In this document: positions 47,177 through 50,288 of the stretch, piece by piece
Position numbering within the stretch: the stretch's first letter is position 1
Layout: every line of letters begins with the position of its first letter
Source: Natronospira proteinivora
GTDB lineage: Bacteria > Pseudomonadota > Gammaproteobacteria > Natronospirales > Natronospiraceae
Direction: 5' to 3'
DNA: 64,000 bases
Assembly: GCF_024170465.1 (NCBI RefSeq)
Contig: NZ_JALJYF010000001.1
Location: 372,001-436,000 of the forward strand
Translations under genes and position numbers: made by a program
The notes under the pieces: model-generated
Seen by the model: the letters and a program-made list of their open reading frames with translations, nothing else
Told to the model about the DNA's origin: nothing
Database searches by the model: none

Positions 47177-48370
47177 ATGAGAGTCTCCACCACCTGGTTT
47201 AATCTCAATGCCACCCAGCAGATGCAGAATCAGCAGGGGCAGCTGGCCAAGACCCAGGAACAGGCCGCCAGTGGCAAGCGCATCGTGCGGCCTTCGGATG
47301 ACCCCATTGGTTCGGTCCAGGCGCTGGAGCTGGGACGTGCTCTGCAGAAAACCGATCAATATGATCGCAATGCGACCATGGCCCAGAACCGCCTTCAGAC
47401 CCAGGAAAGTATTCTGGACGAGGCCGGCAATATCATGCAGCGTGTCCGCGAGCTGACCGTGCAGGGTGCCAATGGCTCCCAAGATAATGACAGCCGCAGT
47501 TTCATTGCAGCCGAGCTCAAGGAGCTGCGCTCGGCCCTGGTGGACATGGCCAATACCAAAGATGCCAGCGACAACTTTATCTTTGCCGGTTTCCAGGGCG
47601 ATACTCAACCCTTCTCACCCACCAGTGACGGTGTGGTGTACAACGGCGACTCGGGCCAGCGCACCCTGCAGATCGGGCCCAACCGGACCGTGACCGACGG
47701 CAATCCCGGCGCCGAGGTCTTCATGAACATCCGTGAAGGCAATGGCACCTTCAAGGCCGAGGCGGGCGCGGCCAATGAAGGTAGCGGGGTGATCAAGAAC
47801 ACCAGCGTGCGGGATCTCCAGCAGTGGACAGGTGATACCTACGAGATCGAAATCCTGGCCGATGGCGAGTACGAGGTCCGCGATTCCGACGGTACGGTGG
47901 TGGAGAGCGGCGAGTTTCAGCCCGGCGAGACCATCCAGTTTTCCGGTATTGAGTTGACCATCGACGGGACACCGGAGGAAGGCGACCAGTTCGAGGTTTC
48001 TCCCAGCCAAAACAGCAGTGTCTTCAATACCCTGGATCGCCTGATCGATGCCTTTGATAGCCCGGTTAGCAATTCCCGGGATCGGACGCAGCAGCTGAAC
48101 GAGGTTAATCGCTCACTGGATGATATTGATCAGGGTGTGGCCCAAATGCTGGAAGTCCGCGCCGAGACCGGTGCACGCTTGAAGGCCATCGATGACCAGG
48201 TGGCGGTGAATGACGGCAGCCGCCTGGACCTTGAGACCACCAAATCCGGCATTGAAGACCTGGATTATGCCGAGGCCATCACCCGTCTCAATCAACAGCA
48301 GGTGGGACTGCAGGCGGCTCAGCAAGCCTATGTGAGAACCCAGGGGCTGAGTCTCTTTAACTTTATGTAG
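47177..48370 (+). CDS. flgL: flagellar hook-associated protein 3, FlgL
   Basis: 397 residues (Salmonella 317). N-terminal MRVSTTWFNLNATQQMQNQQGQLAKTQEQAASGKRIVRPSDDP-type start, flagellin-like D0/D1 helices at both ends, and C-terminal YAEAITRLNQQQVGLQAAQQAYVRTQGLSLFNFM. Middle insert carries one G-x-P-x-x-G-D-x-F module. Second junction protein. GGGGAGG upstream, six bases after flgK. Confidence 0.93.
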   Translation: MRVSTTWFNLNATQQMQNQQGQLAKTQEQAASGKRIVRPSDDPIGSVQALELGRALQKTDQYDRNATMAQNRLQTQESILDEAGNIMQRVRELTVQGANGSQDNDSRSFIAAELKELRSALVDMANTKDASDNFIFAGFQGDTQPFSPTSDGVVYNGDSGQRTLQIGPNRTVTDGNPGAEVFMNIREGNGTFKAEAGAANEGSGVIKNTSVRDLQQWTGDTYEIEILADGEYEVRDSDGTVVESGEFQPGETIQFSGIELTIDGTPEEGDQFEVSPSQNSSVFNTLDRLIDAFDSPVSNSRDRTQQLNEVNRSLDDIDQGVAQMLEVRAETGARLKAIDDQVAVNDGSRLDLETTKSGIEDLDYAEAITRLNQQQVGLQAAQQAYVRTQGLSLFNFM

Positions 48371-48404
48371 GGATCCGCAGTTGGACCGGTGAGCATCGGT
48401 CAGA

Positions 48405-48569
48405 CGCCGTCTCTGGCGCTGCTCCGGCGTTACTTCGGCCATCCCTGGCCTTCGCCCTTCGGGCCTGCAAGCGGAGCTTGCAGTTCAAATGCGTTCCAGA
48501 CGCATTTGTACCGCTCTTGCCCGTAGCGCTGCTACTGTGCGGCGGGCGGTGCCTTGGATCAGGCCAAGG
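48405..48569. repeat. array of at least six consecutive short inverted repeats
   Basis: Seen in order: CGCC/GGCG (48405-48418), GGCCA/TGGCC (48437-48450), GCCC/GGGC (48454-48464), CTGCAAGC/GCTTGCAG (48465-48483), CAAATGCGT/ACGCATTTG (48486-48508), GTAGC/GCTAC (48523-48535), CCTTGG/CCAAGG (48552-48569). The last strong ones are perfect with loops of three to six bases and almost no spacer between neighbours. Could be a structured RNA, a REP-type repeat or a stability element. Confidence 0.6.
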
Positions 48570-48631
48570 GCAGCCTCTGACCATCACCTCCCGGCCCGAC
48601 TGCGGAGGACCAGTTCCGCCGAGAATAGGCT

Positions 48632-48656
48632 GTGGGAGGGGCATTCCTGCCCCGAC
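48632..48656 (+). repeat. REP-like palindrome (GTGG head)
   Basis: A GTGG tetranucleotide, GA, then GGGGCA-TTCC-TGCCCC. This head-plus-palindrome layout is that of REP elements mobilised by RAYT transposases in gammaproteobacteria. Only one copy is seen here and no RAYT gene. Confidence 0.45.
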
Positions 48657-48737
48657 TGGATGTTTTATCTACTCCTGACCGTTAATCGGGGTCGATTCAC
48701 CGTTCGTCGGTGCTGACCAAAAAAATCGCCCGATCCC

Positions 48738-48878: not shown

Positions 48879-50288
48879 ATGAGCATGGGTACGGTGATCA
48901 ACACCAACATCATGTCGCTCAACGCCCAGCGGAACCTGGGGTCTTCTCAGGGACAGCTGGCGACTTCGCTTGAGCGTCTTTCTTCCGGCCTGCGCATTAA
49001 CAGCGCGCGGGACGATGCGGCCGGTCTGGCCATTTCCGAGCGTTTTACGGCACAGATCAACGGCCAGAACCAGGCGGTTCGTAACGCCAATGACGGCATT
49101 TCCTTCTCCCAGACCGCCGAAGGCGCCCTGGATGAAGTCTCCAACCTGCTGCAGCGGGTGCGTGAGCTGGCCGTGCAGTCGGCCAACGACACCAACTCCG
49201 CATCCGATCGCCGGGCCCTGAACGAAGAGGTCCAGCAGGCCGTGCAGGAAGTGCAGCGGATTGCCACCTCCACCCAGTTCAACGACCAGAATGTGCTGGA
49301 TGGTTCACTGGAAGACCTGGTGTTCCAGGTGGGTGCCAACCGGGGCCAGACCATCAGCGTGGCGGGTGTGGATGCCCGTAGTTCCGAGCTGGGTGCCACA
49401 GTTGGTGATGGTTTCGCAATCACTGCCAGTGAGTTTGCCACGGGTGGCGCCCTTGCCGGTCTGGACGGGGATTCTCTCGCCATTAACGGTGAGGAGATCG
49501 ATCTCAGCGGCATTGACAGCATTGGTGGCGTGATCACCGAGATCAACAACGCCTTTGCCGATACCAATGTGCAGGCCGCGCGCGCCGAACAGGCTGTGGT
49601 GGAAGTGGATGACTTTGCCGCGGGGAGTGGCGGTACGCTGACCCTCAATGGTGCTAATATCGATATCGATGCCGGTATGTCAACTGGCGATTTTGTCAAC
49701 GCGATCAATGACGAGCGTGGGCAAAGTGGGGTCGCTGCGGTGGAAAACACCGCCGGTAATATTGTCCTGACTGCCTCCGAAGACATTGCCTTCTCCATCG
49801 AATCGGATGGCACTGGTGATGTTGAATTTGGTGGTCTGACTGACGAAGGTAGTGACAGCTTCCTGCGCGGTATCGAGCTTTCCACCGATGTGGGCGAGTC
49901 CATCACTGTAACGGGTGATGAGATTGCAGAGCTGGGCATTGATTTCGAAAACAACCCGGATCAGCTGGGTGACTTCGCGGCGGCCGATGCCTCCGTGCTG
50001 ACTCGCGCGGATGCCGATTCAGCCATTCGGACCATGGACTTTGCTATCCAGCAGGTCTCCGGTCTGCGTTCCGAGCTGGGTGCGGTCCAGAACCGTTTCG
50101 AGGCTACCATCGCCAACCTGCAGGTGGGTTCGGAGAATCTCTCCGCTGCCCGCTCCCGGATCCAGGACACGGACTTTGCTCAGGAAACCGCTGAGCTGAC
50201 CCGTGCCCAGATCCTGCAGCAGGCCGGTACCTCGATTCTGTCGCAGGCCAATGCCGTCCCGCAGACGGTGCTGGGTCTGCTGCAGTAA
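48879..50288 (+). CDS. fliC: flagellin
   Basis: 469 residues. Highly conserved N-terminal D0/D1 (TVINTNIMSLNAQRNLGSSQ, LERLSSGLRINSARDDAAGLAISERF) and C-terminal D1/D0 (AVQNRFEATIANLQVGSENLSAARSRIQDTDFAQETAELTRAQILQQAGTSILSQAN). Residues about 180-370 form variable outer domains with flagellin-IN type motifs (SLAINGEEIDLSGI, LTLNGANIDIDAGMS), very acidic. GGAGAG ribosome site and sigma28 promoter. Single flagellin in this window. Codons are strongly biased, as for abundant proteins. Confidence 0.96.
   Translation: MSMGTVINTNIMSLNAQRNLGSSQGQLATSLERLSSGLRINSARDDAAGLAISERFTAQINGQNQAVRNANDGISFSQTAEGALDEVSNLLQRVRELAVQSANDTNSASDRRALNEEVQQAVQEVQRIATSTQFNDQNVLDGSLEDLVFQVGANRGQTISVAGVDARSSELGATVGDGFAITASEFATGGALAGLDGDSLAINGEEIDLSGIDSIGGVITEINNAFADTNVQAARAEQAVVEVDDFAAGSGGTLTLNGANIDIDAGMSTGDFVNAINDERGQSGVAAVENTAGNIVLTASEDIAFSIESDGTGDVEFGGLTDEGSDSFLRGIELSTDVGESITVTGDEIAELGIDFENNPDQLGDFAAADASVLTRADADSAIRTMDFAIQQVSGLRSELGAVQNRFEATIANLQVGSENLSAARSRIQDTDFAQETAELTRAQILQQAGTSILSQANAVPQTVLGLLQ

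Follow-up and report, generated by a model that had tools for sequence, protein, structure and literature searches.

A hairpin array between putative flgL and flagellin genes of Natronospira proteinivora as a likely nested insertion of a non-autonomous mobile element

Introduction

The hairpin array found between the putative flgL and flagellin genes of Natronospira proteinivora is very likely a nested insertion, in which a non-autonomous mobile element (called B here) entered one arm of a palindromic repeat (called A here). B is best read as a widespread non-autonomous mobile element that is moved in trans. It forms a dispersed, structurally conserved family present across the class in unrelated sites, and it was precisely gained or lost at one orthologous site. 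All positions are those of the window, i.e., the whole stretch of 64,000 nucleotides that was analysed.

Results

Hairpins in the flgL-flagellin gap are denser than expected by chance

The initial annotation described at least six inverted repeats at 48405-48569, placed back to back, several of them perfect with 8-9 bp stems, at a density far above that of neighbouring intergenic DNA. Perfect Watson-Crick hairpins with a stem of 5 bp or more occur five times in this region without overlapping (48437-48450, 48465-48483, 48486-48508, 48523-48535 and 48552-48569), and a sixth one with a 4-bp stem (48454-48464) was recognised by eye, which bears out the count of six. Perfect stems of 8-9 bp are present as well, only two of them rather than several. 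A repeat finder, run with its own thresholds, reported just two inverted pairs in the same region. Hairpins of 6 bp or more contribute 23 stem bases; the mean of 500 dinucleotide shuffles is 2.3, and none of them reached 23. In a ranking of 1161 segments of 165 bp stepped along the 64 kb, one that starts at 48456 and overlaps the array came second. The claimed density thus holds, and the hairpins at 48405-48569 are real and far beyond chance. Folding of the 310-nt region 48371-48680 gave z = -5.2 for the plus strand as RNA and z = -6.8 for the minus strand as DNA. Two minus-strand open reading frames of at least 80 aa overlap the hairpin stretch (48363-48644 and 48113-48442), and both cover repeats.

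The gap contains two nested repeats and a separate REP

The gap lies between two plus-strand genes whose names are putative and come from the initial annotation, flgL (47177-48370) and flagellin (48879-50288), and three repeats are found in it: A, B and a REP. A DNA search of the own genome with the array returned one full match, the array itself, and many short partial matches; when these were sorted by the part of the query that they covered, three separate families emerged, namely the core of A, B, and the REP. The hairpins of the proposed back-to-back array are confirmed, while the single array is replaced by two nested repeats plus a REP; among the origins that had been suggested, a mobile repeat was the right one.

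Element A is an imperfect palindrome on the plus strand, at about 48371-48611, which is split by B and whose outer arms pair in the predicted fold. Its left arm (48371-48431, boundary approximate), an imperfect palindrome in the fold, begins right after the flgL stop codon, and its right part and right arm (48510-48611, end approximate) contain the conserved core CTTGCCCGTAGCGCTGCTACTGTGC at 48516-48540. This core recurs at other loci of the own genome and of two other genomes of the genus (G001 and G002). At four loci (L005, L040, L045 and L047) element A stands beside a second palindrome with the core CTCATGTAGC...GCTACACTACGCTC, in bigger composite palindromes; in L005, L040 and L047 the ends of the composites are GGAACCTCTGATTAAT / ATTAATCAGAGGTTCC or similar. 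The third repeat of the gap, GCTGTGGGAGGGGCATTCCTGCCCCGACTGG, is a separate plus-strand dispersed repeat of the REP type (48629-48660) with many partial matches in the genome, some of which are inverted pairs.

Element B is a 78-bp four-hairpin insertion element at 48432-48509 on the plus strand. In the window its left flank is GCGTT^ and its right end TTTGT^ (the caret marks the junction), and its sequence is ACTTCGGCCATCCCTGGCC TTCGCCCTTCGGGCC TGCAAGCGGAGCTTGCA GTTCAAATGCGTTCCAGACGCATTTGT, with the hairpins following one another. Hairpin 1 (48437-48450) has an ATCC-type loop which is kept across most of the B family; hairpin 2 (48454-48464) reads GCCC TTC GGGC; hairpin 3 (48465-48483) is free in sequence, its arms varying across the family while staying complementary; hairpin 4, the terminal one (48486-48508), has a 9-bp perfect stem and TTCC in its loop. 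B carries no gene. Its matches are 62-103 nt long, and 66-91 nt in 234 of the 237 copies at distinct sites.

B was gained or lost precisely at one orthologous site

The strongest single piece of evidence comes from G001 and G002, where a gene that by eye looks like lexA lies next to a site that is filled in one genome and empty in the other. At this locus G001 has A alone and G002 has A together with a 78-bp B that is nearly identical to the copy in the window. In the alignment of the two, which spans 700 bp of G001, the 78-bp B accounts for the only gap longer than 9 nt, the flanks to either side are homologous, and no target duplication is seen at the junction beyond one ambiguous shared T. 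It is the one pair resolved for B alone, and loss instead of gain is possible there.

The flgL orthologues of G001 and G002 likewise precede a flagellin-like gene, and the orthologous gap contains neither A nor B in either of these two genomes, the ones compared. This speaks against the suggestion that the array is a transcript-end module for flgL, and a terminator scan gave a single terminator-like match, which lies inside flgL. We expect no dedicated role of this array for flgL or flagellin, and it is probably without function locally.

Nesting is not limited to the insertion of B into A. In a second case, recognised by eye, a B lies inside hairpin 4 of another B, which is itself in a REP-like loop, and tandems of B with zero spacer exist too. 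At L097 (G001, C9:42012-42272) three B copies of 87 bp each follow head to tail without a spacer, and similar zero-spacer runs occur at L318, L327, L192 and L240.

The E. coli argP-rpiA region was considered as a further polymorphism of B only and rejected, as there the whole palindrome with its two B-like parts seems to vary instead. In strain E2348/69 (L382:451-730) this is an enterobacterial palindrome, the second B-like part of which was identified by eye. At least 80% of the query is covered in 6 of the 5375 E. coli genomes with any match, and the coverage among the listed E. coli matches is mostly 59-62%. At this site the palindrome seems to be present in few E. coli genomes and absent from most of the matches listed. 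As the variation seems to involve the whole palindrome, this locus is no demonstration of B moving alone.

B is dispersed across the class

A covariance model, R1, was built from nine B copies in three genomes. The copy in the window is one of these nine seed sequences and scores 88.0 bits. Within the order, R1 has 75 matches (E<=0.01) in 12 of 19 genomes, of which 28 are in G001 and 8 in the own genome, the one in the window included. In a class sample of genomes at least 90% complete, to which the own genome belongs and which the named relatives suggest to be Gammaproteobacteria, 117 of 370 genomes match at E<=1e-5; stricter filters were applied in this search and about 11 candidates were scored per genome, so the copy numbers are lower bounds. 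The initial annotation would have been refuted by a lack of other copies and of covariation; instead, B has copies in the own genome and across the class, and its stems covary (see below).

A degenerate B pattern found at least 119 stretches in a named collection, and the 80 of them that were listed belong mostly to enterobacteria, Rhodanobacter/Dyella and relatives, Chromatiales, and other Gammaproteobacteria. R1 matches all 11 genomes reached from such pattern loci, which means genomes selected for having B, with 1-53 copies each: 53 in Brenneria alni, 35 in Dickeya oryzae, 22 in Pantoea septica, and one each in two others. Of 5426 complete E. coli genomes, 633 contain sequence resembling one B copy (L241). 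An E. coli B copy matches 179 records of a plasmid collection, 166 of them from Salmonella, and the hairpin stretch of the window has no plasmid match; a Dickeya B copy with its flanks matches two records of a phage collection at 75%. Six B matches were also seen in L210, a record titled as a Verrucomicrobia bacterium MAG, which may be a mislabelled or mixed assembly, or may reflect spread beyond the class.

For counting, one incomplete match was removed from each of three match sets. Removal of exact duplicates and of copies with less than 25 nt of flank reduced 281 rows to 259, and keeping one row per 10+10-nt site left 237 distinct sites. Forty regions were hand-picked from the match list of the 11 genomes, mostly from the better-scoring rows. 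The loci taken from the order and class searches are the best-scoring ones, and weak or decayed copies are thus under-represented.

B is preferentially found 3' of TT, often before C

The target was studied on copies found by the model (162 copies at 146 distinct sites), leaving out the loci fetched with a pattern that starts with TT. As R1 contains no flank, the TT rule is an independent check of the B boundaries. B directly follows TT at 113 of 146 sites, against a background of 5.1% in the flanks, and does not do so at 33; TT^C is found at 80 of 146, the background of TTC being 1.8%. The sites are diverse: copies of the tRNA T-arm (GGATT^CGAACC), element A (GCGTT^GCAGC), REP loops (CATT^CC), (GTCGTT)n arrays in G001, enterobacterial palindromes, hairpin 4 of another B, and zero-spacer tandems. 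In G001, B lies beside or inside (GTCGTT)n arrays, after GTT, at L079, L083, L085, L086 and L090, and the arrays themselves occur at several loci.

The T-arm, REP and nested sites first suggested that B might target hairpin loops. This idea was rejected after a fold test on joined flanks, in which 30 of 146 B sites fell in loops compared with 284 of 1331 control TT sites, taken from the same loci and unmatched for GC. For loops closed by at least 4 pairs, strictly T-arm-like sites gave 6/35 against 77/324 in controls, and the other B sites 24/111 against 207/1007.

In search of an enzyme that would move B

One competitor of the proposed reading has B moved, as a REP-like or palindrome-associated element, by a Y1 (HUH) transposase that is either IS200/IS605-like or RAYT-like, which we consider unlikely. 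Elements of the IS200/IS605 family have hairpins near both ends and insert 3' of a short T-rich motif with no target duplication, and the element end resembles the target. B shares the end hairpins, the T-rich target motif, the lack of duplication and the target-like end, and in particular it inserts 3' of a short fixed motif and, in the one resolved pair, without duplication beyond one ambiguous T, as an IS200/IS605 or RAYT-REP element should. Within the order, Y1 is also found in 8 of 12 genomes with B (undetected in 4), and in a second set in 8 of 12 B carriers. On the other hand, the remaining four of that second set are enterobacterial genomes with 15-53 B copies, and Y1_Tnp was undetected in all of them. 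No B lies near any of the 28 Y1 loci of the order. The own genome has a single Y1 match, which is RAYT-like (L048), and it is flanked by GTAGGAGCG-type REPs, which differ from the GTGGGAG REP at 48629-48660. Among 58 Y1 loci scanned by script, none showed an end resembling hairpin 4, and six had matches resembling hairpin 1; the most B-like of these (L149:1320-1345) is a hairpin that adjoins an IS200-like gene and has the loop ATCCCT, as in B hairpin 1, but R1 gives it only 6.5 bits and it comes from a genome of the order in which B has no matches. A Y1 gene is thus not regularly found in the genomes that carry B or beside the element itself.

Other known movers were searched for as well. RVT_1 was undetected in 7 of 10 genomes, which does not fit retro-insertion by an RT in copy-rich genomes. 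An IS110-type DEDD transposase, expected if B were an IS110 passenger, was undetected in the one genome searched, the own one. The Y2_Tnp search, aimed at an IS91-type passenger, gave nothing in 10 genomes and was equally silent in the control genomes, which makes it uninformative. A classical MITE was rejected, as the ends of B are separate hairpins and not mutual inverted repeats (by eye), and the one resolved pair shows no duplication. Integron cassettes insert at G^TTRRRY of attC and begin with TT. This possibility was rejected too, since the B junction is after TT, or within TT by one ambiguous T, and the nucleotide before TT is A at 100 of 237 B sites (pattern-fetched loci included), against the G of attC.

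No mobilising enzyme was found among those searched for. In the proposed reading B is non-autonomous and moved in trans, and the mover could be a host enzyme, a member of some other enzyme family, or an enzyme since lost. The two end-proximal hairpins of B, with drifting stems and mostly kept TCC loops, may serve as handles by which one enzyme, acting in trans, would hold both ends. The substrate would probably be a folded strand of DNA, with one cut following TT in the host and another following the TTTGT-like end of the element. This mobility is read from past insertions, and nothing in the data shows that B is currently active.

Stems of B covary, and a role as RNA is doubtful

The initial annotation had proposed covariance analysis, and the stems of B do covary. 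The seed alignment was made by sequence, with the structure predicted on it. In it, both sides change in 12 of 25 pairs, which none of 500 shuffles reaches, and 97.3% of cells pair, compared with 25-45% when the partners are slid. On four of five covariation measures none of the 500 shuffles comes up to the alignment; the remaining measure, further pair types, is unexceptional and is reached by 70 of 500. Among 61 distinct members from the order and class, both sides change in 22 of 25 pairs, in an alignment that leans towards the model because it was fitted to R1.

The 126 cluster representatives gave too gappy a MAFFT alignment to yield a useful consensus fold, so complementarity of the arms was counted copy by copy. 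The terminal stem is perfect over at least 6 bp in 95 of 126 representatives, and hairpin 1 reaches 4 bp or more in 94 of them; when arms were re-paired, they were complementary in 8% and 14%, respectively. This strict check fails in 31 of the 126 copies for the terminal stem and in 32 for hairpin 1. The loop of hairpin 1 is ATCCNT in at least 68 of 94 calls, and that of hairpin 4 is TCCNG in 75 of 95.

Such strong covariation is what one would expect if B were a functional structured RNA, either an sRNA or a 3' stabiliser, which at this locus would protect or end the flgL mRNA. Further points in favor of this explanation come from Rfam. All four B-like copies in the E. coli K-12 tyrT repeats lie in matches to RtT (RF00391, 133-138 bits), one of them being annotated as RttR, and AaHKsRNA22 (RF02902) hits one B copy and its flanks, at L127, in antisense orientation with 45 bits, above the cut-off of 39.8; RF02902 matches in L122, L222 and L241 are below this cut-off. 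Nevertheless, we regard an RNA function as rather improbable. Relative to B, the RtT matches lie on the opposite strand, as does the RF02902 match that exceeds its cut-off, and a search of the region 48360-48680 returned nothing from Rfam at E<=10, with one irrelevant sub-threshold match nearby. The position of B is not conserved, as the orthologous flgL-flagellin gaps lack it, and its insertion contexts are unrelated. Moreover, one-sided changes of pairs are few: cells with one-sided and two-sided changes number 5 and 26 in the seed alignment, and 21 and 300 in the order and class alignment. Such scarcity suits selection on DNA or on both strands, and palindrome repair could be another source of the scarcity of G-U pairs.

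B interrupts partial copies of tRNA 3' ends

Many B copies interrupt partial copies of tRNA 3' ends, and in several of the loci checked these are beside tRNA genes. In L122, L127, L132, L110, L003 and L035, tRNA genes are near partial tRNA 3' ends consisting of the T-arm and the acceptor half. At several loci the 3'-end copies form tandem units of about 176-217 nt, with B at the position of the T-loop. E. coli K-12 tyrT has four such copies of the tRNA-Tyr 3' end in repeat units of 178 nt, each with a B-like sequence (by eye) right after GGATT. With filters off, R1 matches three of them weakly, at 20.8, 19.2 and 17.4 bits, and the fourth, at 11.5, barely clears the best background match at 9.6. 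Four copies at L127, in one class genome, are matched in the same places by R1 (35-65 bits) and by RtT (34-38 bits).

It might be argued that B is a passive tail of tRNA 3'-end duplications which homologous recombination has spread, with no transposition of its own. The tandem units near tRNA genes, including those of tyrT, would agree with this, as would the 35 of 146 sites that are T-arm-like under a strict rule and the 57 of 146 with (T)CGA on the right. We find it very improbable, however, because 89 of 146 sites have no (T)CGA flank, among them element A, REPs, (GTCGTT)n arrays and enterobacterial palindromes, and because the precise filled and empty pair is outside tRNA sequence. Of those 89 sites, 67 still have TT before B and 38 show TT^C, and after a further, rough removal of hexamer arrays, tandems and one palindrome type the counts are 41/56 and 27/56. 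The TT rule also holds outside tRNA-like sites.

Finally, chance palindromes of GC-rich DNA are already refuted as an explanation by the shuffles, none of which reached the observed stem count, by matches in 117 of 370 genomes, and by the covariation of the stems.

Discussion

For the window, a mobile B inserted into A means a lineage-specific nested insertion and not a conserved flagellar control element, and the interest lies in the class-wide B family with its defined target more than in the local array. As a tentative extension, which we hold with somewhat less than even confidence, B may be the trace of an undescribed transposition system of Gammaproteobacteria. Such a system would recognise the pair of TCC-loop hairpins and join folded DNA 3' of TT, usually before C and without target duplication, thereby seeding palindromes, REPs and tRNA 3'-end copies, and tyrT/RttR would be a domesticated or decayed copy. 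If true, the B family would tie together an E. coli sRNA, an Aggregatibacter sRNA family, tandem repeats at the side of tRNA genes, and intergenic hairpin clusters. It would also point to a DNA-moving enzyme that probably reads shape and follows a simple TT^C rule, and genomes of Brenneria and Dickeya, with their dozens of B copies, would offer a direct route to finding it.

Comparison with known repeats and RNAs

No description of B was found among the matches listed in the open-access literature searched, most subscription journals being outside its scope, and several known systems are similar to it in part. The toRNAdo repeats have tRNA-like ends and would resemble the tRNA-linked units described here; this is a lead, with no relevant paper in the open-access full text searched. 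RAYT transposases mobilise REP/BIME. Like B, REP/BIME elements are short, gene-less, palindromic and intergenic, as described in PMC2817692; B differs in its four hairpins, two end-proximal TCC loops and TT^C target, and no link to Y1 was found for it. Among E. coli repeats, PMC2267715 names Box C (56 bp), ERIC (127 bp) and PU-BIME. ERIC, Box C and other enterobacterial stem-loop repeats, compared with B by description, are similarly dispersed, structured and found in similar places, and B might be identical with one of them. AaHKsRNA22, which matches B and its flanks at L127, is by name an Aggregatibacter sRNA, and no relevant paper on it was among the matches listed in open-access full text.

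A further likeness is to RtT RNA/RttR, as the K-12 repeats are interrupted at GGATT, the very position that B uses elsewhere. RtT is defined as an RNA with tRNA-Tyr flanks, on the strand opposite to that of B; its matches in L127 are under its cut-off of 45, hairpin 4 is degenerate in K-12, and the copy in the window has no match. Judging by the sequences compared, the E. coli tyrT repeats probably descend from a B-like copy.
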